Shown here: positions 679 through 12,448 of the stretch, piece after piece
How positions within the stretch are numbered: position 1 is the stretch's first letter
How the letters are laid out: every line of letters begins with the position of its first letter
NCBI GenBank assembly: GCA_031264645.1
Contig: JAISDR010000199.1
Span: 1-13,210, forward strand
Length of the DNA: 13,210 nucleotides
Reading direction: 5' to 3'
Source of the DNA: Prevotellaceae bacterium
Lineage (GTDB): Bacteria > Bacteroidota > Bacteroidia > Bacteroidales > UBA932
The notes under the pieces: generated by a model
Told to the model about the DNA's origin: nothing
The model's input: only the letters and a program-made list of their open reading frames with translations
The model's database searches: none
Translations under genes and position numbers: made by a program

Positions 679-1038
679 TCAATCAAACCAGTTCGTACGG
701 TTGTCTAATTGAATTCGGGTTATCTTTCCGAAAGTCAGCGTATAATTAGCCGAAAAAAACGGATCATAGCCTTCCCATATTACAAAATAAATTTTGGGAT
801 AATCCGAAGTGAATGTTGTACTTCTGCCCGGCGCCAGGTCGCCCAGCGGGTCGCGCCGGACGATTTCGTCGTCACTGTTCAGATGGTATACCTCTAAATC
901 CCGCAAGGTATAATCCGAGTTGTTTGTCACTTCGACTGTTGCCGACTCAACCTCGTCGTCCTTGTTACATGCTGAAAATACACTTGCCCCCAACACAATA
1001 AAGCACATCCATACATAAATCAATTTCATCTTTTCCAT
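679..1038 (-). CDS. Small predicted surface lipoprotein of unknown function
   Basis: The protein has 119 residues from the chosen ATG at 1038. An in-frame ATG three codons upstream (1047) is also possible, but 1038 places the start directly after the leader AATTTTAAA...AAGTATG that also precedes the genes starting at 1849 and 2207. The N-terminus is a lipoprotein signal: a hydrophobic core ending VFSAC. The residues after the cysteine, NKDDEVE, form the acidic stretch known in Bacteroidota as a lipoprotein export signal for the cell surface. The remaining 95 or so residues alternate in a way that suggests a small beta-sandwich (TVEVTNNSDYTLRDLEVYHL). I do not recognise a named family. It is the last gene of the minus-strand run, 31 bp after the stop of the preceding gene. 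Confidence 0.8.
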   Translation of the reverse strand: MEKMKLIYVWMCFIVLGASVFSACNKDDEVESATVEVTNNSDYTLRDLEVYHLNSDDEIVRRDPLGDLAPGRSTTFTSDYPKIYFVIWEGYDPFFSANYTLTFGKITRIQLDNRTNWFD

Positions 1039-1069
1039 ACTTATCATTATTTAAAATTATAAATCATAT

Positions 1070-1849
1070 TTATTTAGGCGTTTCCGGTTCCTTCTCCAAT
1101 TCATCCCAATCAATGCCGGACAAATCTACTGCCGGTTCGGAGCTTTTCAACTCAGCAATGTCGTCAAGCATCCGGATTTTGTCCGGAGGCGGGACAATGC
1201 TTTCGTCCATGGGCAAGATGATGGCCTCTTCGGTCGAACCTTCCTGACGGCTGTCGCGCATTTGTTTCAGTTCTTTAGTTTGCGCTTTCAGGGCGTTTAC
1301 AATGTCTTTGAACTCGTGATAAGCCATATAAACAATCAGAGGGCCACCTTTCAAACATTTGGTATAGCCGAATGCAAGCAGGGGGTTACTGACAAGCGAG
1401 AGACCGGCATTCGTCGTGGCAAGAGTGACATTGGCGGCATCCAGGATGATATTGCTTCCCGCCAATGCCGTTTCTGCGCCCTGCAGGATAGCGCCTCCCA
1501 CATTCTTGGCATTGCCTTCTTCATCAAGTGCGCGGACGACCATGCATTTTTCGGTCGGCGAATAGAGCGTATCAAGCGAATAGAAATGAATGGATTCCTC
1601 GTAGGACTGGATTTCTTCCCACAGCGTATCACACATGAGGATATAATTATCCAAATTCTCGTCGCCGCTCAGTTTGGATGGCCGGTAATCGTCCCAGTCA
1701 AACTCTTTTTTCTCTTTTTTCGGCTTCTTTTCTTTCTTTTTTTGTTGTGATTCCTGTTTCGGGTTCACTCCGTTTCCGGCTCTTGAAACGGGTATCACAA
1801 ACGTTGTCGCCATCATCAGGATGACCATTTTAATAACTAATGTTTTCAT
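1070..1849 (-). CDS. Exported protein of unknown function with a Lys-rich segment and a small-residue central region
   Basis: The protein has 259 residues from the ATG at 1849. A longer frame with an ATG at 1894 exists, but that start lies inside the upstream gene and hides the signal peptide; 1849 gives MKTLVIKMVILMMATTFV ending at an SRA-G cleavage site and matches the start of the neighbouring gene at 2207. After the signal come a lysine/glutamate-rich stretch (about residues 36-49), an acidic FDWDDY segment, a mixed domain, and a central region rich in Ala, Gly, Leu and Asn (about 115-170) that could be a membrane-interacting or packed helical hairpin. The tail is acidic with a proline-rich linker. 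No family is recognised. Its position at the end of the tubulin-like operon suggests an envelope role; this is inference. Confidence 0.8.
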   Translation of the reverse strand: MKTLVIKMVILMMATTFVIPVSRAGNGVNPKQESQQKKKEKKPKKEKKEFDWDDYRPSKLSGDENLDNYILMCDTLWEEIQSYEESIHFYSLDTLYSPTEKCMVVRALDEEGNAKNVGGAILQGAETALAGSNIILDAANVTLATTNAGLSLVSNPLLAFGYTKCLKGGPLIVYMAYHEFKDIVNALKAQTKELKQMRDSRQEGSTEEAIILPMDESIVPPPDKIRMLDDIAELKSSEPAVDLSGIDWDELEKEPETPK

Positions 1850-2309
1850 ACTTCTACTTTTTAAAATTGTTTTACTTCTTTTTATTTTTGACATATTTAG
1901 TTTGGCTATTCTGTTTCTGTCGTCCTTCTACCGCTTGTTGACGCTGTTGATTATGCGTTTGTGACTCCTTCACTTTCTTTTCCTTTATTTCCTTTATCTC
2001 CTTTATCTCTGCCGTCTTTTTCGTCTTCGTTTTCGTCTTTTCCTTTACCTCCTTTACTTCCTTTACTTCCTTTACCTCTTTCGCCTTTTCCTTCTTTTTT
2101 CTCTGTAATTCCAGTTTCTGATACACTTCGTTGCCTGCTTTTGCAACGGGCGCCACGAACGTCGTCGCCATCATCAGGACAAGCAGTTTAATAACTAATG
2201 CTTTCATGCTTCTATTTTTTTAAAATTATTTTTATACTTCTATTTTTGATCTGATTCGTTTGGCTGAATGTGTTTCCATCGTCTATCTATCGCTTGTTAA
2301 CGCTGTTCA
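1738..2309. repeat. Diverged tandem duplication spanning two gene starts and a gene end
   Basis: About 210 bp at 1738-1950 align with about 2097-2309 at an offset of 358-359 bp. Shared pieces, in plus-strand order, are the signal-peptide coding region (GTCGCCATCATCAGGA), the start region (TTTAATAACTAATG), the leader (TTAAAATT plus TACTTCT), then GTTTGGCT, TCGTC and CGCTTGTT-ACGCTGTT. In the distal copy this last part is the 3' end of the gene stopping at 2287. In the proximal copy it lies inside the small gene 1872-2207. The TAG stop at 2287-2289 has its counterpart, out of frame, at 1928-1930. Confidence 0.8.
1872..2207 (-). CDS. Small exported Lys/Glu-rich protein made by partial duplication
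   Basis: The protein has 111 residues. The signal peptide MKALVIKLLVLMMATTFV, ending VAKA-GN, is nearly identical to that of the next gene (start 1849), and the first 40 or so residues of the two align. The middle is low complexity: repeated KEV and KEI triplets from 9-bp DNA repeats, probably a charged helix or a disordered basic segment. The last 25 or so residues (from QQRQQAVEGRQKQ) correspond, in another reading frame, to duplicated DNA of the end of the gene stopping at 2287 plus the following spacer. The result is a chimera with a borrowed signal peptide and an out-of-frame tail. It may be functional, for example as a charged periplasmic peptide, or a decaying by-product of the duplication. 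Confidence 0.65.
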   Translation of the reverse strand: MKALVIKLLVLMMATTFVAPVAKAGNEVYQKLELQRKKKEKAKEVKEVKEVKEVKEKTKTKTKKTAEIKEIKEIKEKKVKESQTHNQQRQQAVEGRQKQNSQTKYVKNKKK

Positions 2310-3711
2310 AGCCTTTAGGATTAATTCTAATTTTCAAATCACTGATTACGTCGTTGTCGGTGGGGACGTAGTCGAAGTCGTCCGAGGCTATGCCGTAATC
2401 CTCTCTGCTGGCGACGAAGATGAGCCTGTATATGCTCTCTGCCGTATTCCGGGGCACACTGACCTTAAAGCTGCCGTCGACAGAGGTTTGTCCGAGCAAC
2501 TTTCGCAACTCCTTCTTTTCCTTGCCCGGACCGGGCATCTCAACGCCGTTGATTTTCTTCAGCTTGTTCTCGTGGGTACAGAGAACAATATAAGTATTCG
2601 GAACCGGAAGGTTATTTCCCTGCATGTCCATGCGCGTATTATCGAGGATTTTCCCGGAGACGATGCGTCCGATACTCTCCACAAATTTGTAGTACTCCCG
2701 ATTATGCTCCAGGCAGTAGGGATCCGCCGGATTATGTTTAAGGATCAGGTTGCGCCACGTGAAAGCCTCGGCCTGACAGTGCATGCAACTGTCGATGAGA
2801 CCATTCTTGCGGAAATCCAGCGCACGGTTGTATTGGTGGCGGGCGAGCAGGAAGTAGCGATACAAACTATCCATTTGCATGATTTTTTTCTGTTCGTCCG
2901 ACAGGTCGATAGGTTTGCTGCTGCAATCGTTCGTTTCGACTAATTTTTTGTACACGTCACGGGCTTCGTGATAGACGCCATTCCGGAAGTGTTGCTGCGC
3001 CAGTGCGATTTGGTTGTCGTAGCAATTGCGACCGATGACGATGACCGCTATGTCAATACCCTGCTTGGGCGCTAACCGGCCGAGCAGATGCTCGTAAGGC
3101 GCTTCGTCGTCGCCGGAGAAGATTTTCAGCTTGTGTTCCCTTTCGCGGTTCTCCGGCGCACTCAGCTCGAAGTAAACTTTATAATCATACGTTTGGTTAT
3201 CGTTCAACACCGGCCCGACCACTTTTGCGGCTGTAGGTGATTCGACCTTAAGGCTATTAGAAGCGGAAGTAAGCGTGACGAGCGACGTGTTTTCCTCCCG
3301 GATAACCGCGTGATCATTTGTCACCCGCACTCTGATATTTCTTACGAATACGTTGTATTCCAATAACTGGCCTTCTTCGATATACACAGACTGAAACTGA
3401 GGCGTCACCATCCCTGACAGCGAGATATTGAAGCCAAATTTGTTCTTGTCGTTCACGTCGCAGATGCAGGTGTAGACATACAGGCTGTCGTCCCTTTGCT
3501 GCGGCGACTGGACAGTCTCGCCGGCGTTTTCCTTAAACTTCAGATCGGACGAACGGGAAATAAAGTCAACACGCGCCTGCGCCGGTTGTCCGGCGAATGT
3601 TTTCTCCCCTGCAACAGGTTCTATCTCTATGACCTGAGCCTCCGCAACGCTCGACGCCAGCCAGATACTCGCGGCGAGCAATATCGTTTTTACTGTGTTT
3701 TTACTTTTCAT
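2287..3711 (-). CDS. Exported TPR-like protein with a C-terminal carboxypeptidase-regulatory-like domain
   Basis: The protein has 474 residues. A Sec signal peptide ends at about residue 25 (VAEA-Q). Residues 75-215 look beta-rich (VYIEEGQLLEYNVFVRNIRV). Residues 233-335 are helical and TPR-like: ALAQQHFRNGVYHEARDVY is a typical repeat helix pair, with further helices around YNRALDFRKNGLIDSC. Residues 347-440 fit the carboxypeptidase-regulatory-like/CNA-B-type fold common in Bacteroidota envelope proteins: GRIVSGKILDNT, then LPVPNTYIVLCT, then GQTSVDGSFKVSVP. Six or more cysteines are present outside the signal, which is unusual for a periplasmic Bacteroidota protein. It starts 5 bp after the stop of the upstream gene, so the two are translationally close. 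A structural or adaptor role in the envelope is likely; no enzyme motif is seen. Confidence 0.85.
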   Translation of the reverse strand: MKSKNTVKTILLAASIWLASSVAEAQVIEIEPVAGEKTFAGQPAQARVDFISRSSDLKFKENAGETVQSPQQRDDSLYVYTCICDVNDKNKFGFNISLSGMVTPQFQSVYIEEGQLLEYNVFVRNIRVRVTNDHAVIREENTSLVTLTSASNSLKVESPTAAKVVGPVLNDNQTYDYKVYFELSAPENREREHKLKIFSGDDEAPYEHLLGRLAPKQGIDIAVIVIGRNCYDNQIALAQQHFRNGVYHEARDVYKKLVETNDCSSKPIDLSDEQKKIMQMDSLYRYFLLARHQYNRALDFRKNGLIDSCMHCQAEAFTWRNLILKHNPADPYCLEHNREYYKFVESIGRIVSGKILDNTRMDMQGNNLPVPNTYIVLCTHENKLKKINGVEMPGPGKEKKELRKLLGQTSVDGSFKVSVPRNTAESIYRLIFVASREDYGIASDDFDYVPTDNDVISDLKIRINPKGLNSVNKR

Positions 3712-3716
3712 AAATA

Positions 3717-4712
3717 CTATTCTTTAATGAGAAAATCGCCTGTGTCGAAGACTTTTTCCTTCGGCGTTTCGTCATAGGGCTGCCACGTGCGCACATGTAT
3801 CTGCGGCTTGTTTTCATTCTTGAAGTCCCAGAGGAGGAAAAGATAGCCCTTGTCGCTGTAGCTTCCCGAATTCCAGTGCTGAATCAGCTTGACGCCATAG
3901 ATTTCGTCTTTCGTTCCGTGCTTGTTTACTTTGACGTCCTCGAACACGACATTGATCCGCGCATTGTTCTGAAAAACACGGGAGAGGCCAGTCAGATACT
4001 GCTCTTTGTTCTGGACTTTGTACTCGACGTCCGGCTTGAGCTTGTAGCCGCCTACCCCATCCGCCGGCTTCCTCTCTACTACTTTGCCGGTGATGATCAG
4101 GGCGTCGTCGCTGAAGATGTCGCGTATATAGTCGAGGTCCTTGCGGTTGTAGGCCGTCCGGAACTGCTCGACAAACTCGACTACCATCGAGCGCCGGCGC
4201 AGGTCGGTTACTTCCAGACCGGTGCGCATGATCTGTGCATACTGGTTCTTACTGATCGCAAAGCACAGGTCGCTGATCCGGCCGGAAGCATCGAAATTAA
4301 GTACGAGTTCCTGATATTTGTCTTCGTCGAAACGCTCGCCTTTGCGAGGCTCCATGATGGCCGGAATGTTGCGTATCTGGTAACCGCCGGAAGGAGTATT
4401 CAGGCAACGCTCGACGATCTCCAGTTCGTCGCAACGGAAGGGGCATATCTCCCACATCGTCGTCAGGGATGAAACGGCGCTCCTGTCGATCTCGATATTG
4501 CCCAGCGAGAGGCTGCGGGCTTCGCCCTGGGCGTTGTTTAATTCCGTTAGCAGCGCGCCGCCGTTTTTTTCCATCTTCGCCTTGATTTGGGAATTGGGCG
4601 CGCCGCTTTGGAGGTCAATGCTTGTCGTATACTGCGCCTTCGCCACATGCGCCATGAGCAGGCAGACGCAGCCGACTATCAGCCTGTAATGATAAATACT
4701 TTTCTTTTTCAT
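3717..4712 (-). CDS. Exported protein with a C-terminal NTF2-like domain
   Basis: The protein has 331 residues from the ATG at 4712. A TTG three codons upstream (4721) could extend it, but the ATG gives a compact signal peptide, MKKKSIYHY then a hydrophobic core, ending HVAKA-Q. Residues 28-165 form an N-terminal domain I do not recognise, with paired cysteines in the segment EICPFRCDE. Residues 175-310 match the pattern of the NTF2-like/SnoaL fold: a long first helix with FRTAYNRKDLDYIRDIFSDD, then DALIITG, and later strands ending YLFLLWDF and IHVRTWQP. NTF2-like folds usually bind small ligands or act as scaffolds, and no catalytic pair can be assigned. It lies 16 bp after the upstream stop and 5 bp before the next gene. 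Confidence 0.85.
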   Translation of the reverse strand: MKKKSIYHYRLIVGCVCLLMAHVAKAQYTTSIDLQSGAPNSQIKAKMEKNGGALLTELNNAQGEARSLSLGNIEIDRSAVSSLTTMWEICPFRCDELEIVERCLNTPSGGYQIRNIPAIMEPRKGERFDEDKYQELVLNFDASGRISDLCFAISKNQYAQIMRTGLEVTDLRRRSMVVEFVEQFRTAYNRKDLDYIRDIFSDDALIITGKVVERKPADGVGGYKLKPDVEYKVQNKEQYLTGLSRVFQNNARINVVFEDVKVNKHGTKDEIYGVKLIQHWNSGSYSDKGYLFLLWDFKNENKPQIHVRTWQPYDETPKEKVFDTGDFLIKE

Positions 4713-4728
4713 CTGTTTCAATTGTTTT

Positions 4729-5463
4729 TTATTCGTAAATCGTCAACCATATTTTAGTACAATGGTCGTAACTGTTCAAATTCTCCTTTTCGCCGGTGAG
4801 GAAATTCTTGCGTACATTCAGCCCCTTGTCGAATACGGCTTCGATCTTGCCGTTCGAAACGGCAATGATATACCAGGCCGGATTGATATCCGACGTCACC
4901 CTGTCCCACATGATCTTGTGAGCCGCCTTCTGTCCCTTGAGATAGTTTTGGAGAGAGGTGAGGTCGGTAGCCGCGACAATATCGGAAATGATCCGCGGCA
5001 TGGACTGACTTTGCACGGGAGGGGAATGAGTTTCCGGTACGGTTTCCTCAACGGGTTCCGGCTCCAATTCCGGCTCCGGCTCCCTGTCCGTATTCCGGTG
5101 GATTTCCATAACTTGATTGCCGGCCGAGATGTTGTCCTTGTCGACATACAGGAATACCCTGTCCATCGTTCCGCGTTTCAGTTTGACTACGGAAGAATTT
5201 TTCTTGATGTTGTTTACGATAATGGTTTCCGCATCCTGCAAGGATTCGCGTTCGCTGATCACGCGCCGGATTTCCGATTCGATAATGGTTTCCGCAGCCA
5301 GCAGGGCCTCTTCGGGCGTATCGGCGATTCCTTCGCCGTAAATATACCGGGAGTTTTTCTTGATGCTTGCAATCTTCGTCTTCTCTTCCGCGTAATCTAC
5401 CTGTCCGTACATCTGGAAAGCGAAAAGCGCCAGCCAGATCATCCATATACTTTTTCTTTTCAT
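4729..5463 (-). CDS. Exported LPP20-like protein
   Basis: The protein has 244 residues with a short signal peptide (MKRKSIWMIWLALFAFQMYG, cleaved before Gln). Residues 38-115 resemble the LPP20 domain: YIYGEGIADTPEEALLAAE is the usual aromatic-GxG stretch followed by an Ala-rich helix, then further helices and the strand RVFLYVDKD. LPP20 proteins are often lipoproteins; here the residue after the cleavage site is Gln, so this copy is probably soluble. A Glu-Pro-rich linker (about 127-150) leads to a C-terminal domain (155-244) with WYIIAVSNGKIEAVFDK, which I do not recognise. It is 22 bp after the upstream gene and 16 bp before the next. The role is unknown; LPP20-like proteins often sit in envelope operons. 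Confidence 0.8.
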   Translation of the reverse strand: MKRKSIWMIWLALFAFQMYGQVDYAEEKTKIASIKKNSRYIYGEGIADTPEEALLAAETIIESEIRRVISERESLQDAETIIVNNIKKNSSVVKLKRGTMDRVFLYVDKDNISAGNQVMEIHRNTDREPEPELEPEPVEETVPETHSPPVQSQSMPRIISDIVAATDLTSLQNYLKGQKAAHKIMWDRVTSDINPAWYIIAVSNGKIEAVFDKGLNVRKNFLTGEKENLNSYDHCTKIWLTIYE

Positions 5464-5485
5464 TGTTCACTTGTTTTTAATATGA

Positions 5486-6643
5486 TTACTGATGTTCATT
5501 CCGGTCTTCATAGAGGGTAGCAATATTCCGGATGGGAATGTAAGGGTACAGCGTAACGATGACCGGAATATCGTCCCGCCGAAACGCTTCCGTCGGAAAT
5601 TTGAAATAAAGCAGATGCTTATACATCAAATCCCGGTTTACATACATGACCGTTCCTGTAAATTCCCTGTCCGTCGCTGTCTCCAATCCCACGTAAGCTT
5701 TGCATTTCTGCGCTTTCATGTAGGCGCACAGGCGGTTCGCTTCCAGTGAAAACTCATCGGCAAGGCGATACCCCATGACCGTCAGTTGCAGTTTGTTTTT
5801 CCGCTTCATTTCGTCGGCGTTCGCAAAGAGGTTCAACAGTGATTCTGCGCCCATATCCTCGTGAAAAACGTATTCGTAGCCCGTTCCGGTACGGTACAGA
5901 AAACGGCCGCTCCTCATCTGCGGAATCAGATATGTATCGTCTATCTCCTCACGGACATCCCACGCTTGAATGTATGGAAAGGGCAGCCAAGCCGATCCGG
6001 CATTGCCGGAAGCCGTTTCTCTGCCGGTCTCCGGGCAGAGAAATGTTTCCAATTCCTTTCGGAAGCCTTCGGCCAGTTCCTTCTTGTCCCTGCCCAGAAT
6101 CAGGTCGTACTGCTTTGGAAAGGACAGTTCCACATCTTCATGTTCCAGCGCCCACCGTATCCGAAAATGAGACGAATCTCCGGTCAGTGTGAAAGGCGAC
6201 AGACTGTCAATAGGCTGGAGGATGAGGGACAACGATCGTTTGCCGTCAAGGAAATTACGCCCGTTTACGTTCAGGGTCACAAAATCTTCGCGCAGCAGAT
6301 AACGCTGTTCAGCAGGGTTGCGTTTCAAGAGCAACGCCAGCAGGTAACGTTCGACGAAGCCGTATATCGGACGGGCAAAATCCCTGTCCATCGTTTGAGG
6401 AAAGAGGAGCAGGCCCATGTCCAGCAGGGTTGAATCCGCCATCTCCACGCGCAACTGTTTGCCCGGACAGAGCGCACCCAAATCCCGGATTCCCGCCCTC
6501 TCTATCTGCAACCCCCGCGCCTGTGCATCGGCAAACATGCGTTTCATCGTTTCGCTTCCCGCCTTTACCCGGGCTGCCGCCGGTAACGGCGGCGCCAGGA
6601 TAAGGAGGCTGATCAACATATAAAAAATGACTCGACACATCAT
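5486..6643 (-). CDS. Exported protein of unknown function with a weak OmpA-like C-terminal stretch
   Basis: The protein has 385 residues. The signal peptide is MMCRVIFYMLISLLILAPPL with cleavage near PAAA. The start at 6643 is preceded by the purine stretch GAAGAAGGCG, a better ribosome-binding sequence than most here; a second ATG follows directly. Residues 30-240 are mixed alpha/beta with no family I recognise (YLLREDFVTLNVNGRNFLDG, LSLILQPIDSL). Residues 265-310 (ESLLNLFANADEMKRKN, LQLTVMGYRLADEFSLEANR) have the order helix, strand, Gly, Leu/Ala-rich helix seen in OmpA peptidoglycan-binding domains. The conserved GHTD-type residues are missing, so this is a faint similarity only. It lies 15 bp after the preceding gene. 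Confidence 0.8.
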   Translation of the reverse strand: MMCRVIFYMLISLLILAPPLPAAARVKAGSETMKRMFADAQARGLQIERAGIRDLGALCPGKQLRVEMADSTLLDMGLLLFPQTMDRDFARPIYGFVERYLLALLLKRNPAEQRYLLREDFVTLNVNGRNFLDGKRSLSLILQPIDSLSPFTLTGDSSHFRIRWALEHEDVELSFPKQYDLILGRDKKELAEGFRKELETFLCPETGRETASGNAGSAWLPFPYIQAWDVREEIDDTYLIPQMRSGRFLYRTGTGYEYVFHEDMGAESLLNLFANADEMKRKNKLQLTVMGYRLADEFSLEANRLCAYMKAQKCKAYVGLETATDREFTGTVMYVNRDLMYKHLLYFKFPTEAFRRDDIPVIVTLYPYIPIRNIATLYEDRNEHQ

Positions 6644-6658
6644 CGCCTTCTTCGTTTT

Positions 6659-7528
6659 TTACGGTTTCGCAGGTATTCCCGAACTCCCGATCATGATTGT
6701 TCCCTTTTGATTTTTCTCCCTGTCATACCATTTTGCCTGAAGCACCTCGTTGTTTTCAAACTGGCCAATCAGGTAGTCGCCCGATGCACCTTCCCGTTGA
6801 CGGTCGTCCCGGCGGCTGATCCGGCAGGATTTGAAGAATTGAAACGTACCGTTCCCGTTCGCCTTGCTGTCTTTCAGGTCACCCTGATAGTTTCCGTAAG
6901 GCGTACTGATCGTACCTGTCCCGTTGCCGTTATCCGTGACATGTCCGGCGTTCAGGGCAGCGGCGATGTCATAACCTTCCGGCGGCACCTCTTCACCGCC
7001 TCCCGGTTCGTTACCGCCCGGCGGCAACATCTCCGGCTGACTGACCGTCACCGCGCATTGAGCCGAAACCTTGCCGTCCGGGGAAGAAAGACTGATTCGA
7101 ACTTCTCCGGCGGCAATGGCCGTAACGGTTCCTTCGCTTACGGTGGCAACGGCGTTGTTGCTACTGTTCCATACCAACCCTTTCGCCGAAGCGCCGTCCG
7201 GTTTGACCTTGTACGTCAGCCGACGGGTATCCCCGACTGTCAATGCGACCTTCGATTCGCTTAACGTCAACTCTTTTACGGAAGTATCGGACGACAGGAG
7301 AAAATACGTCGAGAGGCCGCCGCCCAATGCGACGACAGCGGCGATAATCCCGATAATCAATCCTTTTTTAGGCCCTCCCCCACCGGTCGAACCTCTTTCT
7401 TCCAATTCACTGTTACATTCCGGACATACGAAATCTTCCGTAAAGTCCAGTTCGATCATTTCGTTTCTGTCCGCCTTGGGACAGTTTCCGAAATTGATAC
7501 ATTTGCCTGTTCTTTTTGTAGTACTCAT
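6659..7528 (-). CDS. Single-pass membrane protein: zinc ribbon, TM, BIG2 domain, MORN-like repeats
   Basis: The protein has 289 residues. The N-terminal domain has a four-cysteine zinc-ribbon pattern: C10-x5-C16 and C35-x2-C38 in GKCINFGNCPKADRN and DFVCPEC. A Gly-rich linker with two lysines leads to one membrane helix (57-78). The positive charges before the helix predict a cytoplasmic ribbon and a periplasmic remainder. Residues 84-163 are a BIG2 bacterial Ig-like domain: LTLSESKVALTVGDTRRLTY, then VWNSSNNAVATVSEGTVTA, then GEVRISLSS. A Pro-Gly-rich linker follows. Residues 202-280 contain MORN-like repeats (YGNYQGDLKDSKANGNGTFQ and YLIGQFENNEVLQAKWYD). It starts 18 bp after the tubulin-like gene, so it is very likely co-translated and a direct partner. 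No enzymatic motif is present. Confidence 0.88.
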   Translation of the reverse strand: MSTTKRTGKCINFGNCPKADRNEMIELDFTEDFVCPECNSELEERGSTGGGGPKKGLIIGIIAAVVALGGGLSTYFLLSSDTSVKELTLSESKVALTVGDTRRLTYKVKPDGASAKGLVWNSSNNAVATVSEGTVTAIAAGEVRISLSSPDGKVSAQCAVTVSQPEMLPPGGNEPGGGEEVPPEGYDIAAALNAGHVTDNGNGTGTISTPYGNYQGDLKDSKANGNGTFQFFKSCRISRRDDRQREGASGDYLIGQFENNEVLQAKWYDREKNQKGTIMIGSSGIPAKP

Positions 7529-7546
7529 TGTTTATTCATTTTCTTG

Positions 7547-10500
7547 TTAATTTCTTAATATTTGACCGGCTTCCTTTGCCGCATTTCGGAATTTCACAAA
7601 AACGGGATCTCCTGGATTGCTTTTACATTCGGGAAGAACAACCGTATTTATCAGATTTTTAACGGCGTCTTCCAGTTCCGCGCGTTTCGTGACGTGCAGG
7701 TATTCGCCTTGCAATGCCACACTGATTTTGGACTTGATTTCCGTTGCAAAATCCTCGTCGACAGCCGGCGATTCAATGATATCGGTCACTTTCTCTCCAA
7801 GCGCCAGCGGAGGCAGCGGATAACCGTCTTCGTCTATCTGCGTCATGCACCAGGCTTTCTTGCCCGTGCCGTCGCCCCGATCCTGATAGGCAATATCGTT
7901 TTTCACCACGGCAATCAGCATATACGGAAGCGACGAAGCAATCATCGCCTTTCGTTCTTCCTCCTCTTCCGCACGCGTCCTCGTAAACATCTTCGGATAC
8001 TGCGACCCGTCGCCTTCCAGATGCAATACCAATCGGGCCACTTCGGGATTGTTTCCCCTCAAAACCAAATCGTATTTCTGTTTCAGAATCCGGGCGTCGT
8101 TCACCATGCGGATGGAGAAACAGGACGTCAGGTTGATAACCGTGATTTCATTCTTCCGCCGGCTTTTCGTATCTATATAGATGTGCTTGCTCCCGTCGGA
8201 ATTATGCTTGAACGCATCTACCAGCTTGTCGATAAACTTTGTATTTTCGGGCGACTCCGGAAGGCTGATCAGCGTGCTTTTCATCATGATCAGTGTGCCG
8301 GGCTGGGGAGCGTCATTGTTTTTCAATTGCTTGGTAACCTCGCTCTGATCAAACGTCAGGAACACGCCGCTGGATTCCATCACATTTCGTGCAAATTCGT
8401 CCAGTTCGGTTTGTTTATCGGAAGAATCATACTGTTCTTTCAGTTTCTCGATGATGTTGATTCCGATAAGTTTCTGCTTTTTGTTTGTTATCAATTCGTT
8501 ATGCGCCTGAATGGAACTCTCGCGCGCCTTCTGGGAGAAAATATCCATCAGGACGTCTTCGGCGGTATGTTCGTTGAGCCTGGTAAATGTTTTTTCGCTG
8601 CCGGCCAGGTCGGCGATCGCATTCCGTATGGATGCGCTTTGAGCCGACTGAATTTGCTGGTCGCGCGTCACCCTGTCCATGAAATTCCGCACTTCCTGCG
8701 TATCGTAATATTTCACAACGGTCTCCTTGAACGTTTCGTTTGAAATTTTCTTTTCACGACAGTGGGAAGCGATTTCCTTTTCGGAGGCGGTCAGCGCACT
8801 CGTCAGAACGTCCGAAAACCGTTTCACTTCACTGTTGAGCAATTGCATTTCATTGATGGCTTCCGCCAGCAGCTTCTTGGCGAAACGCAGACCCTCCAGC
8901 TCCGTCTTTTTGATATACAGTTGTTGCATCAGCGTCGTCTGCGCCTGGAAAAGTTTCTTTCGCTTGCCCAGCAAGTCCGTGAGGACGCCGGAGGAAGCCC
9001 AAGCCACTTCATTTTGCTTCTTGACTGCATACATTTTGTCTATCTCTTCAGTTTTGGAGATGATTTTACCGTCGAATGTTTTCAGGCGGTTTTCGGTTTG
9101 AGAAATCAGCGTGTCCATCATCCGACCGATTTCATAGACGGACTTTTGCCCGGTTTGCCACTGGCTGAACAAGTCCCGCCCGATCGTATCTGTCACTTCC
9201 TTCGCATGTTCCTTGCGTGCCTGTTCCTTGATGTGGTAAAATTCGGGTACGCCCACTTTCCGGAAGTTCTTTTCAAAACGCTCATCGCAGAACTTGGCCA
9301 ATTCGTTAATAGCGCGGGACGAGTTCTTTTCCCAGGCCACGTTCGCCAGATTGGGAATAATGGCATTCCAGTCGTCCTGAAACGATTTCCATTTCTGTTC
9401 TTTCTCGCCAGCCAGGATGGGTAACGAAAGCATCAGATGGGCGTCCGACAGCATCCAGCCGTTCAGCGTGGCCTTGTCGTTTACGAAACTGACGTAATCT
9501 TCGTTCTTCGGCTGATCCCGAAAGCCCAGGTCGTCCGACCAGTTGTTATACTTGAATTGCAGCAGGGCCTGCTTGGCAAAAGTGTAGGTGAAATATTCGA
9601 CGATTTCTTCTTCCGGATTGACGACCCGTTTGATTCCAAATGCGTTGAAACGACGGGTACGAACCGGTTTTTCCCGGTTGGCAATGTCCTGCGTCTTGGC
9701 CAGTTCATTTTTCTCCTTTTCGCCGTCCACAATATTTTCCAGCGTGAAAGCATCTTCAAATGCTCGCGTCGTATCGTCCACTTGCAGAAACAGGTAATGG
9801 AATATCAAGTCGGAAACGATTTCAGGCAAATCGTCTTTCGTATCTACCGTAATCCCGTTTTCGTTGGCATTGGTAAACAGAAAACAACTGTTGAAAACCC
9901 GGTCTACGTCGTCGAGGGGTACCAATTCATATTGCCCGCTGACGTCATGCGGAATAAAGCGTTTTACCTGCAAGGCATTCAATTCCTGCAAGGCCGCAAA
10001 ACCATTGGCATGATAAAAACCCTTATCCCAGCCGGGTAACGGGGCATGCTCAGGCACCAGACAATATACCAGTATCTTGTACTTCAAGCCCGAACCGATA
10101 TTCGGCTGATAATGTTTCCGGGTTTGAGCAATCACATCGACGACCGAACCGCTGCCCGTACCACCAGCCAGACCGGCAATGATATGAAACGTCACATCGG
10201 TTTTCCCGCTTTTGTTTTTTACTTCCTTGACCTGGTTTTTGAGGACGCTTTCGTATTCATTGACGGCGCAGGAAAAAAGGAACCGTCCCAGGCGGCGGCG
10301 CTGTGCTGCAGCGCCATCGTCGCCGATGGAGCCGACTAAGTTGTCCCATATTTTCCGGTCGCCAATCCAACTTTTGATACCGGGATAATTGTCCACATTT
10401 TCCAACTGGCTGCCCAGTGAAGCGCCGCGGATAAAGAGAAAATTGTCTCTTCCCAGTTGCGCATTTTCGCCCAATATTTTCCACGTGGGATCATTGGGTT

Positions 10501-10666
10501 TCATGTTCTCTTTACTTGAATCCACATAGACAAAGCCTAACGGCATTGTTCTCCGGTCTTCGGCGGAAGACACTTCCAGAAAAAAACGTTTCCGGATAGC
10601 TTTCAATATATTGCCACCGGTTCCGCCAATACCGATGATTACATGATTTTCGTTTATCGTATTCAT
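7547..10666 (-). CDS. Large tubulin/FtsZ-superfamily GTPase-like protein (Tubulin_2 / FtsZ-like type)
   Basis: The protein has 1039 residues, about three times the size of FtsZ. The N-terminal nucleotide-binding region is well preserved. The first loop is GIGGTGGN at 12-19, like the FtsZ/tubulin T1 loop. YVDSSKE follows the next strand (47-53). GDDGAAAQRRRLGRFLF at 115-131 is typical of this subfamily. The signature glycine loop is AGGTGSGS at 167-174, close to the tubulin GGGTGSG. A later helix, NGFAALQELNAL, may be the base-contacting region. Residues about 480-700 are long charged helices, probably coiled coil. The last 300 residues form a further domain I cannot name. There is no signal peptide or membrane helix, so it is cytoplasmic. 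It probably binds GTP and polymerises; that is inferred from the family. It is not FtsZ itself. The gene heads a tight operon of membrane and exported proteins. Confidence 0.93.
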   Translation of the reverse strand: MNTINENHVIIGIGGTGGNILKAIRKRFFLEVSSAEDRRTMPLGFVYVDSSKENMKPNDPTWKILGENAQLGRDNFLFIRGASLGSQLENVDNYPGIKSWIGDRKIWDNLVGSIGDDGAAAQRRRLGRFLFSCAVNEYESVLKNQVKEVKNKSGKTDVTFHIIAGLAGGTGSGSVVDVIAQTRKHYQPNIGSGLKYKILVYCLVPEHAPLPGWDKGFYHANGFAALQELNALQVKRFIPHDVSGQYELVPLDDVDRVFNSCFLFTNANENGITVDTKDDLPEIVSDLIFHYLFLQVDDTTRAFEDAFTLENIVDGEKEKNELAKTQDIANREKPVRTRRFNAFGIKRVVNPEEEIVEYFTYTFAKQALLQFKYNNWSDDLGFRDQPKNEDYVSFVNDKATLNGWMLSDAHLMLSLPILAGEKEQKWKSFQDDWNAIIPNLANVAWEKNSSRAINELAKFCDERFEKNFRKVGVPEFYHIKEQARKEHAKEVTDTIGRDLFSQWQTGQKSVYEIGRMMDTLISQTENRLKTFDGKIISKTEEIDKMYAVKKQNEVAWASSGVLTDLLGKRKKLFQAQTTLMQQLYIKKTELEGLRFAKKLLAEAINEMQLLNSEVKRFSDVLTSALTASEKEIASHCREKKISNETFKETVVKYYDTQEVRNFMDRVTRDQQIQSAQSASIRNAIADLAGSEKTFTRLNEHTAEDVLMDIFSQKARESSIQAHNELITNKKQKLIGINIIEKLKEQYDSSDKQTELDEFARNVMESSGVFLTFDQSEVTKQLKNNDAPQPGTLIMMKSTLISLPESPENTKFIDKLVDAFKHNSDGSKHIYIDTKSRRKNEITVINLTSCFSIRMVNDARILKQKYDLVLRGNNPEVARLVLHLEGDGSQYPKMFTRTRAEEEEERKAMIASSLPYMLIAVVKNDIAYQDRGDGTGKKAWCMTQIDEDGYPLPPLALGEKVTDIIESPAVDEDFATEIKSKISVALQGEYLHVTKRAELEDAVKNLINTVVLPECKSNPGDPVFVKFRNAAKEAGQILRN

Positions 10667-10717
10667 TTTTGTAATATTAAATTATATTATTCATGCGAAT
10701 TAGTAGTTAGTAATTAG

Positions 10718-10737
10718 GGGCGAAAAATTTTTCGCCC
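10718..10737. repeat. 20-bp perfect palindrome upstream of the tubulin-like gene
   Basis: GGGCGAAAAATTTTTCGCCC reads the same on both strands. It ends 51 bp upstream of the tubulin-like start codon (10666), in the region that would be the 5' leader or promoter. It lies next to TTAGTAGTTAGTAATTAG-like sequence of a kind often repeated in Bacteroidales intergenic DNA. It could be a protein-binding site, an RNA hairpin in the leader, or just part of the repeat element. No convincing Bacteroidota promoter (TTTG with TAnnTTTG) was found near it. Confidence 0.85.
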
Positions 10738-10761
10738 GTACAGGCGAGCAGCCTGCAGTAC

Positions 10762-11046
10762 GAAGCATTTTTCCCAATTTGTTTTGTCCTTCTTGCTTAA
10801 GCAAGAAGCATTTTTCTGACCTGTTTTGCCTTTCTTGCTTAAGCAAGAAGCATTTTTCCGGCTTGTTTTGCCCTTCTTGCTTAAGCAAGAAGCATTTTTC
10901 CGGCCGATTTTGTCCTTCGTACTTAAGTAAGAAGCATTTTTCCGACCGATTTTGCCCTTCGTACTTAAGTAAGAAGCATTTTTCCAACTTATTTTGTCCT
11001 TTAAGCAAGCGCGCAAAGCTTTTCGCAAGCTTGTTTTGTCCTTCGT
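10762..11046. repeat. Tandem array of 42-bp units, each with a 20-bp palindrome
   Basis: Five palindromes are centred at 10798.5, 10840.5, 10882.5, 10924.5 and 10966.5, exactly 42 bp apart, with decayed copies at both ends; the leftmost repeat is one base longer. The first three are CTTCTTGCTTAAGCAAGAAG or one base different. The last two carry CTTCGTACTTAAGTAAGAAG, in which an inner C-G pair is replaced by an A-T pair on both arms, and one G/A mismatch appears. Between palindromes is GCATTTTTCC followed by a variable five to seven bases and GTTTTGCC or GTTTTGTCC. In RNA each gives an 8-bp stem with a TTAA loop. The sequence is unrelated to the array at 251-512. Confidence 0.95.
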
Positions 11047-11068: not shown

Positions 11069-11842
11069 TCAGTTATATTCATTTCTAATACGCAAGTCCT
11101 TATAGGCGCAATACCCGATCCATCCGAACGGAACGGACTGTACAAGCAGAAACAGAAAGGCAAGCAGCCAGCGCGTTTTCGCGACCGTTCCCGGAGCCTG
11201 TGCAACCAGTTCTTCCCGGATATAACGCGCGGCAAGCGCTACGGCCCTTTCAAGAGGATATCTATCTTTGCCCGTTTCTTTGAAATAAGTCACAATATCC
11301 TGTGTGATTGCTTCCTCCGAAAGACCCACTTCGGCATGTACCAGCATATTCAAGTAACGATGATTTGTACGGAATGATCCACAAGCCGCATCCACATACG
11401 CAGTAACGCAGGTCTTTGTCATTTCATCCGTATAAATGGGGATGAAACAATTCTCTTCTCCCGGCCTCGCAAGGCCGCGGAATGCATCGGGATTCACCTT
11501 TTCTACGGCAAGATAAGCCTGCTCAAAGGTTTCGTTTCCCCATTCATCATCCGTAACAAGCTGTTCTTCCCATTCGTCGACGGTCCGGCATACGATTTCC
11601 TCCAGATTGCCGAACGCACGGAACGACAGCGTAAACAAAACGGTCAGAATGACGGCTATCCCGCAAATGAAATGGTGCCGGGGTTTCACATGAAACCGAT
11701 TGTTCCACAATTTCGTATAATACACGCAAACAAACCAGCATAACGCGGCCAAGCCCAGACTTGCCCATATAATGCCGATCCATTGTTTGCCCGTTAAGTC
11801 GGAGATGCACTCCGATAATACATCAAAAAAATCTTTTATCAT
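11069..11842 (-). CDS. Integral membrane protein with an extracytoplasmic domain, unknown family
   Basis: The protein has 257 residues. Two membrane helices lie at about 21-42 (WIGIIWASLGLAALCWFVCV) and 57-76 (HFICGIAVILTVLFTLSF). A loop of about 145 residues follows, and a third helix at 223-246 ends in a short basic tail (KDLRIRNEYN). By the positive-inside rule the loop linking helices 1 and 2 and the C-terminus are cytoplasmic, and the large loop is periplasmic. The loop contains three cysteines (C85, C132, C145) and a further C154, which could form disulfides. No family is recognised. The topology matches the next gene upstream (start 12448), which suggests a pair. Whether it belongs to the same transcript as the tubulin-like gene is unclear because of the 402-bp repeat element between them. 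Confidence 0.8.
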   Translation of the reverse strand: MIKDFFDVLSECISDLTGKQWIGIIWASLGLAALCWFVCVYYTKLWNNRFHVKPRHHFICGIAVILTVLFTLSFRAFGNLEEIVCRTVDEWEEQLVTDDEWGNETFEQAYLAVEKVNPDAFRGLARPGEENCFIPIYTDEMTKTCVTAYVDAACGSFRTNHRYLNMLVHAEVGLSEEAITQDIVTYFKETGKDRYPLERAVALAARYIREELVAQAPGTVAKTRWLLAFLFLLVQSVPFGWIGYCAYKDLRIRNEYN

Positions 11843-11908: not shown

Positions 11909-12448
11909 TTACATTTCTTCCATAAATTCCATGAATGAGTTATTCTGACGCCGGCTCTGTTTCGAGGCGTCATTAGCCAGCCAGCATCCCAGCAATAGCA
12001 GGCCGGCAGCGATCCAGCCCGTTCGACGCCAGAGATAACGGTTAATTTTGTGTCTCACCTCACGAACATAAAAGGTAATCAGGTCAGTCTGATCGGAAAA
12101 CGATTGCCGGATCGTTTCCTGTTCCGTTTTCCCGATAAAAGGTTTAAGCATGGGATAGGCGTTCGCCAATTCGTCGCCGAATGTATCCGCCCGTTCCACA
12201 GCTATACCGAGCTGTTCGACTTGCCCCACGCTTGGAATATAGCCCTTCAGTTTGAACCCTCCGACCCATAACATCGACTGGAAGGTAAAAAAACAAAAGC
12301 CGGCGATTAGCAGAACGATTCCCGCAAGTTTGTGTCCATACCTTGAGTAAATCATCCGGGGAAAATAAACCAGTATCACCGTAAGCAGCAATGCTATCAG
12401 CACTCCCCAGAAAACGCTCGCCATCAAATTTCCTATCACTTGAAACAT
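11909..12448 (-). CDS. Small integral membrane protein, unknown family
   Basis: The protein has 179 residues. Membrane helices lie at about 11-30 (SVFWGVLIALLLTVILVYF), 41-63 (LAGIVLLIAGFCFFTFQSML) and 142-158 (GWIAAGLLLLGCWL). The segment between helices 2 and 3 (about 64-138) is soluble, probably periplasmic and helical (TFGDELANAYPMLKPFIGKT). The C-terminal tail is charged, with SKQSRRQ then FMEFMEEM, and would be cytoplasmic. The plan of two N-terminal helices, an outer domain and one C-terminal helix is the same as in the following gene (start 11842), which lies 66 bp downstream. It is the first gene of the minus-strand run in view. Its function is not recognised. Confidence 0.78.
   Translation of the reverse strand: MFQVIGNLMASVFWGVLIALLLTVILVYFPRMIYSRYGHKLAGIVLLIAGFCFFTFQSMLWVGGFKLKGYIPSVGQVEQLGIAVERADTFGDELANAYPMLKPFIGKTEQETIRQSFSDQTDLITFYVREVRHKINRYLWRRTGWIAAGLLLLGCWLANDASKQSRRQNNSFMEFMEEM

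Follow-up and report, generated by a model that had tools for sequence, protein, structure and literature searches.

The window analysed here, the whole 13,210-nucleotide contig JAISDR010000199.1 of a Prevotellaceae bacterium (assembly GCA_031264645.1), carries a gene for a large tubulin-like protein, FtsZl1, followed by genes for a membrane-spanning coupler with a zinc-ribbon-like head (F3) and for the predicted exported proteins F4, F5 and F1. We propose, with a probability of about 0.4, that this locus encodes an envelope-spanning complex with an exchangeable cytoplasmic element, in which tubulin assembly is the output. Comparison with related loci shows that FtsZl1, the coupler, F4, F5 and F1 form a conserved gene cluster, and that sister loci retain the C-terminal part of the coupler, F4 and F1 but have a TIR or kinase domain, fused to the coupler, in place of the zinc ribbon and FtsZl1.

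Judged by its sequence, the 1039-residue protein is a member of the Tubulin_2/FtsZl1 family. A first-pass annotation had read its two glycine loops (GGTGG at residue 14 and GGTGSG at residue 168) as a tubulin/FtsZ-type core, and the Pfam profile Tubulin_2 (PF13809) indeed reports the protein at 205.6 bits (E 1.7e-60; cut-off 27). The second profile suggested there as a check, PF00091, stays under its cut-off (23.2 bits against 33). A separate PF00091 protein, the canonical ftsZ product, is encoded elsewhere in the host genome (161.2 bits), so that cell division is an unlikely role for FtsZl1. In the predicted structure both tubulin domains are present, with a long helical arm between them; its helices span residues 429-777, the extended helical middle expected of the FtsZl1 family, and the best folds for the model are CetZ and tubulin. 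With both domains kept in the model, assembly of FtsZl1 is plausible. Our candidate for a T7 loop lies at residues 767-776, where E776 follows a helix in 108 of 112 sequences and was not seen in locus L040; an earlier candidate at residues 388-393 was dropped because the C-terminal domain of the model begins near residue 790. Against PDB sequences the single FtsZl1 protein found no match; the FtsZl1 profile picked up nothing beyond T4 loops of tubulins and one designed protein (best E 0.15).

Conservation of the partners was assessed from open reading frame (ORF) families in 21 loci and from profile scans. The order FtsZl1-coupler-F4-F1 is kept on one strand in all 12 loci whose contig extends past F1 (the window, L002, L003, L031, L033, L034, L035, L036, L037, L039, L118 and L119). 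Ten of these were found with the tubulin-like protein as query; L118 and L119 were found with F1 and are thus not independent of it, and L004, L005, L007, L032 and L038 (contig ends) as well as L040 were left out of the count. In 10 of the 12, all but L118 and L119, F5 is encoded between F4 and F1; in the window it was counted by alignment, the automated pick there being an overlapping plus-strand ORF. A 134-residue ORF sits between the coupler and F4 in L034. F4 has 18-24% identity to that of the window in eight of the nine relatives aligned. The neighbours had been taken at first pass for a distinct Bacteroidota partner set, and this set is indeed conserved in other Bacteroidota. Of the 393 genomes sampled from the order, 15 have F4, and these include all eight that carry full-length FtsZl1-II (Fisher p 4.9e-13, provided that both samples are the same genomes; the order samples for FtsZl1, Tubulin_2 and F4 were taken as one on the basis of equal genome number and identical handles). 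In genome G324 F4 and FtsZl1 lie on separate contigs.

The coupler joins a zinc-ribbon-like N-terminus to a MORN-like C-terminus across a single transmembrane (TM) helix. For the window protein alone the MORN match is below cut-off (E 0.072); ten of 13 family members match at E <=0.1 (best 2.3e-7), and MORN1 structures score E 1e-7 against the profile of the family, which assigns the coupler family to the MORN-repeat proteins. At least four cysteines precede the TM helix in 12 of 12 loci, and lysine and arginine are richer before the helix than after it in ten of the 12 (exceptions L031 and L034), a pattern that fits a cytoplasmic zinc ribbon. The heads of the L118 and L119 couplers have diverged, and the zinc-ribbon profile reports neither.

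Two sister loci carry a different head on the same module. In genome G109 (locus L093) a TIR-TM-MORN gene is followed by F4 and F1, successive genes overlapping by 4 bp; its product matches Pfam TIR_2 (E 3.5e-14) as well as MORN. Similarly, in G225 (locus L094) a kinase-TM-MORN gene is followed by F4, F5 and F1, the first overlap being 4 bp, and the head protein matches Pfam Pkinase (E 4.7e-28). AVK, HxDxKPxN and DFG, which we take to be kinase motifs, are present in its alignment; F4 of this locus is short (243 residues). A profile of zinc-headed couplers built without either protein matches the C-termini of both (E 6.1e-26 for L093 and 7.6e-19 for L094), and both matches begin at profile position 50-51, just beyond the zinc ribbon. 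Neither genome is among the 20 with a Tubulin_2 match. The F1 tree joins the kinase locus to L037, an FtsZl1 locus likewise from family f25 (support 93/90), a grouping that would be compatible with a kinase having taken the place of the zinc ribbon and FtsZl1 within a single lineage. With the coupler alignment as query, 46 proteins were listed, 35 of them with a zinc-ribbon-like cysteine pattern and nine TIR-headed. The nine, one of which is L093's own protein, match at least 98% of that protein; each has one TM-like stretch and keeps SKWVxxE in the TIR head, and three match MORN by Pfam. Further TIR genes lie by L093 (11473-14677) and L092 (4125-5507), coding for TIR-TPR and TIR-Sel1 proteins, and a protein with TrkA_N and RyR domains is encoded near L093.

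Together these comparisons suggest how such a complex might work. The periplasmic part (MORN, F4, F5 and F1) would sense the state of the envelope or surface, and the coupler would pass that state across the inner membrane. The zinc ribbon would dock FtsZl1 and control its GTP-dependent assembly, while the helical arm may tie the filament to the membrane-bound coupler. Tubulin assembly would then serve as output, a role filled in other bacteria by NAD chemistry (TIR) or phosphorylation (kinase). The sharper form of this proposal, a modular envelope receptor whose cytoplasmic arm is a GTP-driven tubulin polymer on a zinc ribbon-TM coupler, evolutionarily interchangeable with TIR or kinase domains, is put forward only tentatively, and we consider it rather doubtful. 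If true, it would mean bacterial receptor signalling by tubulin assembly. The exchange of zinc ribbon and FtsZl1 for TIR or kinase on one periplasmic module provides a functional hypothesis for FtsZl1 and a defined candidate partner, the coupler's zinc ribbon.

Several observations weigh against the proposed complex. The exchange, seen with its gene context, comes from one TIR and one kinase locus. No kinase-headed protein, L094's own included, appears among the 46 coupler homologues listed, a list that is thus incomplete. The branch joining L094 to L037 falls below the starred level, and the F4 tree leaves the placement of L094 open. Five genomes with F4 and F1 (G198, G377, G378, G441 and G447) have neither coupler nor FtsZl1-II, and F4-F1 therefore also works without either; the first four are likewise absent from the 20 genomes with a Tubulin_2 match, and G447 has a distant FtsZl1 on another contig. 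Among the proteins upstream of coupler-less F4, scanned in L089, L091, L092 and L095 (L090 was left out), Sel1 passes its cut-off in L089 and L091 and falls short of it in L092, and L095 has TPR matches below cut-off. The Foldseek TM-scores of the FtsZl1 model are modest, 0.35-0.50 by target, and the comparison of the T7-loop candidate with an FtsZ profile was not significant, 8 of 60 shuffles scoring equally high. Finally, binding of the zinc ribbon to FtsZl1, assembly of FtsZl1 and sensing by the periplasmic part are all inferred.

The alternative that survives best is membrane remodelling, in which a GTP-driven filament anchored by the coupler would bend or reorganise the inner membrane and the exported proteins would serve as a periplasmic scaffold. 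The first-pass annotation had correctly credited Makarova and Koonin (2010; PMC2875224) with proposing such a role for FtsZl1. A complete tubulin fold in the model, partners that are membrane-bound or exported and the separate canonical ftsZ are all compatible with it. However, vWA, P-loop GTPase, protein kinase and OmpA neighbours, frequent though not required in the family, are missing from the window proteins scanned, much as the earlier remark that neither vWA nor a second GTPase is in view had it. Moreover, where the same module bears a TIR or kinase head FtsZl1 is lacking, and TIR and kinase domains are not devices for remodelling; these loci point to signal transduction instead. Remodelling is thus possible, has no specific support here, and seems to us unlikely.

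Slightly less probable again is a structural or trafficking scaffold, with FtsZl1 positioning a surface machine made of F4, F5, F1 and a variable tail, and TIR or kinase heads regulating the same machine. LPP20-like and PEGA proteins recur with the module, CsgG and DUF4384 proteins are found at a Paraburkholderia FtsZl1 locus, and the tail behind F1 differs between loci, as cargo might. Yet no porin, secretion ATPase or assembly platform was found among the window proteins scanned, and conservation does not extend to the tail genes.

An immunity or conflict system, whose envelope part would sense attack and whose effector would be FtsZl1, TIR or kinase, strikes us as improbable. TIR domains are frequent effectors, FtsZl1 is patchily distributed and extra TIR genes lie near two sister loci. 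Tubulin-GTPase conflict systems have also been described (Kaur et al. 2020, PMC7159879). Against this, a PADLOC scan of the window proteins gave no family of note (its lone best match, E 0.025, was taken as chance), Pfam and NCBIfam gave no GAP1-N or TRAFAC GTPase match among those scanned, and no defence neighbours were recognised. That the neighbours are unrelated genes co-transcribed by chance may well hold for the tail genes of the window and is otherwise favoured only by ignorance of function; for the coupler, F4 and F1 it is contradicted by the order kept in every one of the 12 loci, with F4 at the identities given above, and it is hardly credible overall.

The patchy distribution of FtsZl1 is evident at each level sampled. 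Protein matches were obtained in 7 of 148 relatives (full-length in G000, G001, G007 and G010), in 14 of 393 genomes of the order (eight full-length or nearly so) and in 8 of 395 genomes of the phylum (full-length in G000, G192 and G825); the remaining matches were short or weak. The cluster is carried by a culture-collection strain, Mangrovibacterium marinum DSM 28823. A phage or plasmid origin was considered and rejected on the two collections searched, the phage collection not being one of them: a scan of IMG/VR confirmed no relatives in 135 stretches, and a plasmid collection gave one record, a 1.09-Mb Paraburkholderia replicon. In L036 (7934-11062) an in-frame stop breaks FtsZl1, with the remainder of the cluster in place. 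L037 and L038 are two near-identical contig ends of genome G397 that hold FtsZl1 and its flanks, perhaps an assembly duplicate. Elsewhere, four ORFs of 657-709 residues (L097, 6724-8853; L098, 7328-9415; L099, 7356-9338; L100, 7387-9360) resemble the FtsZl1 helical arm in profile searches (E 4e-24 to 6e-21) and lack a credible tubulin domain; the one scanned gave no Pfam family.

Features of the window, with coordinates counted from its first nucleotide
Feature	Coordinates	Strand	Description	Basis
F2b	11909..12448	-	179-residue membrane protein, two TM-like stretches	hydropathy; blastp family F2
F2a	11069..11842	-	257-residue membrane protein, three TM-like stretches	hydropathy, family comparison
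Tandem array	10762..11001		42-bp units, 5.7 copies, palindromic, between F2a and FtsZl1	
FtsZl1 (Tubulin_2)	7547..10666	-	1039 residues: tubulin GTPase domain, helical arm ~429-777, C-terminal tubulin-like domain from ~790	
F3 (coupler)	6659..7528	-	289 residues: zinc-ribbon-like N-terminus with four Cys, TM helix 56-74, Big_2, MORN-like C-terminus	
F4	5486..6643	-	385 residues, predicted exported, without Pfam family	
F5	4729..5463	-	244 residues, predicted exported, LPP20-like	homologous fusion proteins
F1	3717..4721	-	334 residues, predicted exported, NTF2/SnoaL-like C-terminal half	matches below cut-off
F6	2287..3711	-	474 residues, predicted exported	TPR match below cut-off
Tail genes	679..2207	-	three small exported/lipoprotein genes (2207-1872, 1894-1070, 1047-679), candidate module members	

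All genes discussed lie on the minus strand and are transcribed in the order F2b, F2a, FtsZl1, F3, F4, F5, F1, F6 and the three tail genes (2207-1872 first, 1047-679 last), with successive gaps of 66, 402, 18, 15, 22, 7, 5, 79, -23 and 22 bp; the spacing of 5-22 bp noted before for the genes down to F6 is thereby borne out. So is the prediction that genes after FtsZl1 encode membrane or exported products, given signal-peptide-like starts or, in 1047-679, a lipobox-like SAC, both read directly off the sequence. By hydropathy, TM-like stretches occur in F3, F4 and the three tail genes and are absent from F5, F1 and F6, whose hydrophobic starts are short. FtsZl1 had been thought to head the operon; this has to be revised, as the two membrane-protein genes F2b and F2a sit upstream of it. 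F2a is a distant paralogue of F2b (13% identity), and F2 lies directly upstream of FtsZl1 in 7 of 12 loci by blastp family, or 8 of 12 if L034 is included through a profile that itself contains L034. In the 91%-identical locus L002 only 25 bp separate F2a from FtsZl1, without an array, so that both upstream genes probably belong to the cluster; in the window the 402-bp gap houses the tandem array. This array has a strong predicted RNA fold (z -6.4), and a second, different array of 42-bp units lies at 248-503; both have about six copies.

The C-terminal domain of F4 (residues 261-372) models as NTF2-like, and the structure matches listed for the model are mostly NTF2-like, with OmpA among none of them. 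F4 had been called weakly OmpA-like; with 0 of 10 family members matching OmpA at E <=0.1, this identity was discarded. Nor do we claim a common origin of F4 and F1 (hhalign probability 2.1). The LPP20 profile matches neither the window F5 nor any of ten F5 family members. The F5 profile reaches E 0.085 against 4kzs and also matches two LPP20-F1 fusion proteins, both of which match Pfam LPP20; in these fusions (L120, 751-2586; L121, 7281-9188) an LPP20 domain is joined to an F1-like NTF2-like domain, with neither F4 nor coupler nearby. The window F1 matches Cds6_C (E 5.7e-4) and SnoaL_3 (E 1e-3), both below cut-off, and Cds6_C is found in 6 of 12 F1 family members (best E 1.4e-5). F1 occurs in tandem copies in L002 (three, 10847-14055), L031 (two, 8692-10812) and L037 (two, 4303-5818); no such duplication was seen for the coupler, F4 or F5. 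Within the ORF families, F6 is common only to the window, L002, L003 and L033, and of the loci compared L002 alone has homologues of the tail genes 1894-1070 and 1047-679.

The window, a single contig, belongs to a genome of 1.58 Mb that is 65% complete. Its closest named relatives are metagenome-assembled genomes of a Prevotellaceae bacterium and of Candidatus Symbiothrix, names that suggest an insect-gut symbiont as host. A CT-rich low-complexity repeat lies at the contig end (13101-13206), and an ORF reading RERERE likewise lies at one end of L032 (7607-7849); repeats of these types may break assemblies in these genomes.

Other FtsZl1 loci carry related arrangements. In L040 the gene after FtsZl1 encodes a zinc ribbon-TM-PBP-OmpA protein, with about 950 bases of contig remaining. 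On the Paraburkholderia replicon an FtsZl1 gene (28.6% identity over 91%) is followed by a zinc ribbon-TM-TPR gene; upstream there is a DUF4384 gene in the same orientation, and the opposite strand carries a CsgG gene. Counting the window, zinc ribbon-TM heads next to FtsZl1 in these loci bear three kinds of periplasmic part. Distant FtsZl1 forms were found in L041-L044 (912-955 residues) and L084-L087 (797-1013 residues; L086 cut by the contig end). Matches to vWA, all below cut-off, occur in scanned neighbours in L042, L044, L084 and L085, and none in L041; L041-L044 and L084-L087 resemble the published FtsZl1 context more than the window does. In L042 (3863-7366) a protein with a papain-family protease domain (E 2.4e-21) lies beside the distant FtsZl1 gene and the weak vWA protein.

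The 2010 paper presented FtsZl1 as a highly divergent group of tubulins, left filament formation open and listed a Bacteroides caccae protein among the members (PMC2875224); no tested function is reported in the literature consulted. The words zinc and ribbon are absent from the main text of that paper, its additional files being outside this scope. Neither the gene cluster nor the TIR/kinase exchange is described in any of the open-licence PMC titles and abstract starts listed, a range that does not cover Additional files 5 and 6 (gene contexts) of the 2010 paper. The window protein resembles the published family, as its main text presents it, in the N-terminal Tubulin_2 domain, helical middle, mostly helical end, GGTGSG loop, and exported and membrane neighbours. 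The window differs in having the coupler-F4-F5-F1 set rather than vWA, GTPase or OmpA neighbours, and in a modelled C-terminal tubulin-like domain that the paper could not find (PMC2875224); among related loci, family-typical neighbour domains do appear as the kinase head of L094 and the OmpA domain of L040. The GAP1-N2 systems of Kaur et al., as far as the text consulted describes them (PMC7159879), likewise combine a tubulin domain and helical extension with a membrane-protein operon, but occur in firmicutes and actinobacteria beside a GTPase and a vWA or FNIII partner; in the window no such partner was found. Unlike CetZ and tubulin, with which it shares about 13% identity, FtsZl1 has an arm of about 350-400 residues before the C-terminal domain. 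A further close parallel is offered by the TIR-TM-MORN proteins of Bacteroidota (P0160 and relatives, annotated 'TIR domain-containing protein'): their TM-MORN part is homologous, L093 combines its protein with the same F4 and F1 partners, and TIR stands where the window has a zinc ribbon and FtsZl1.

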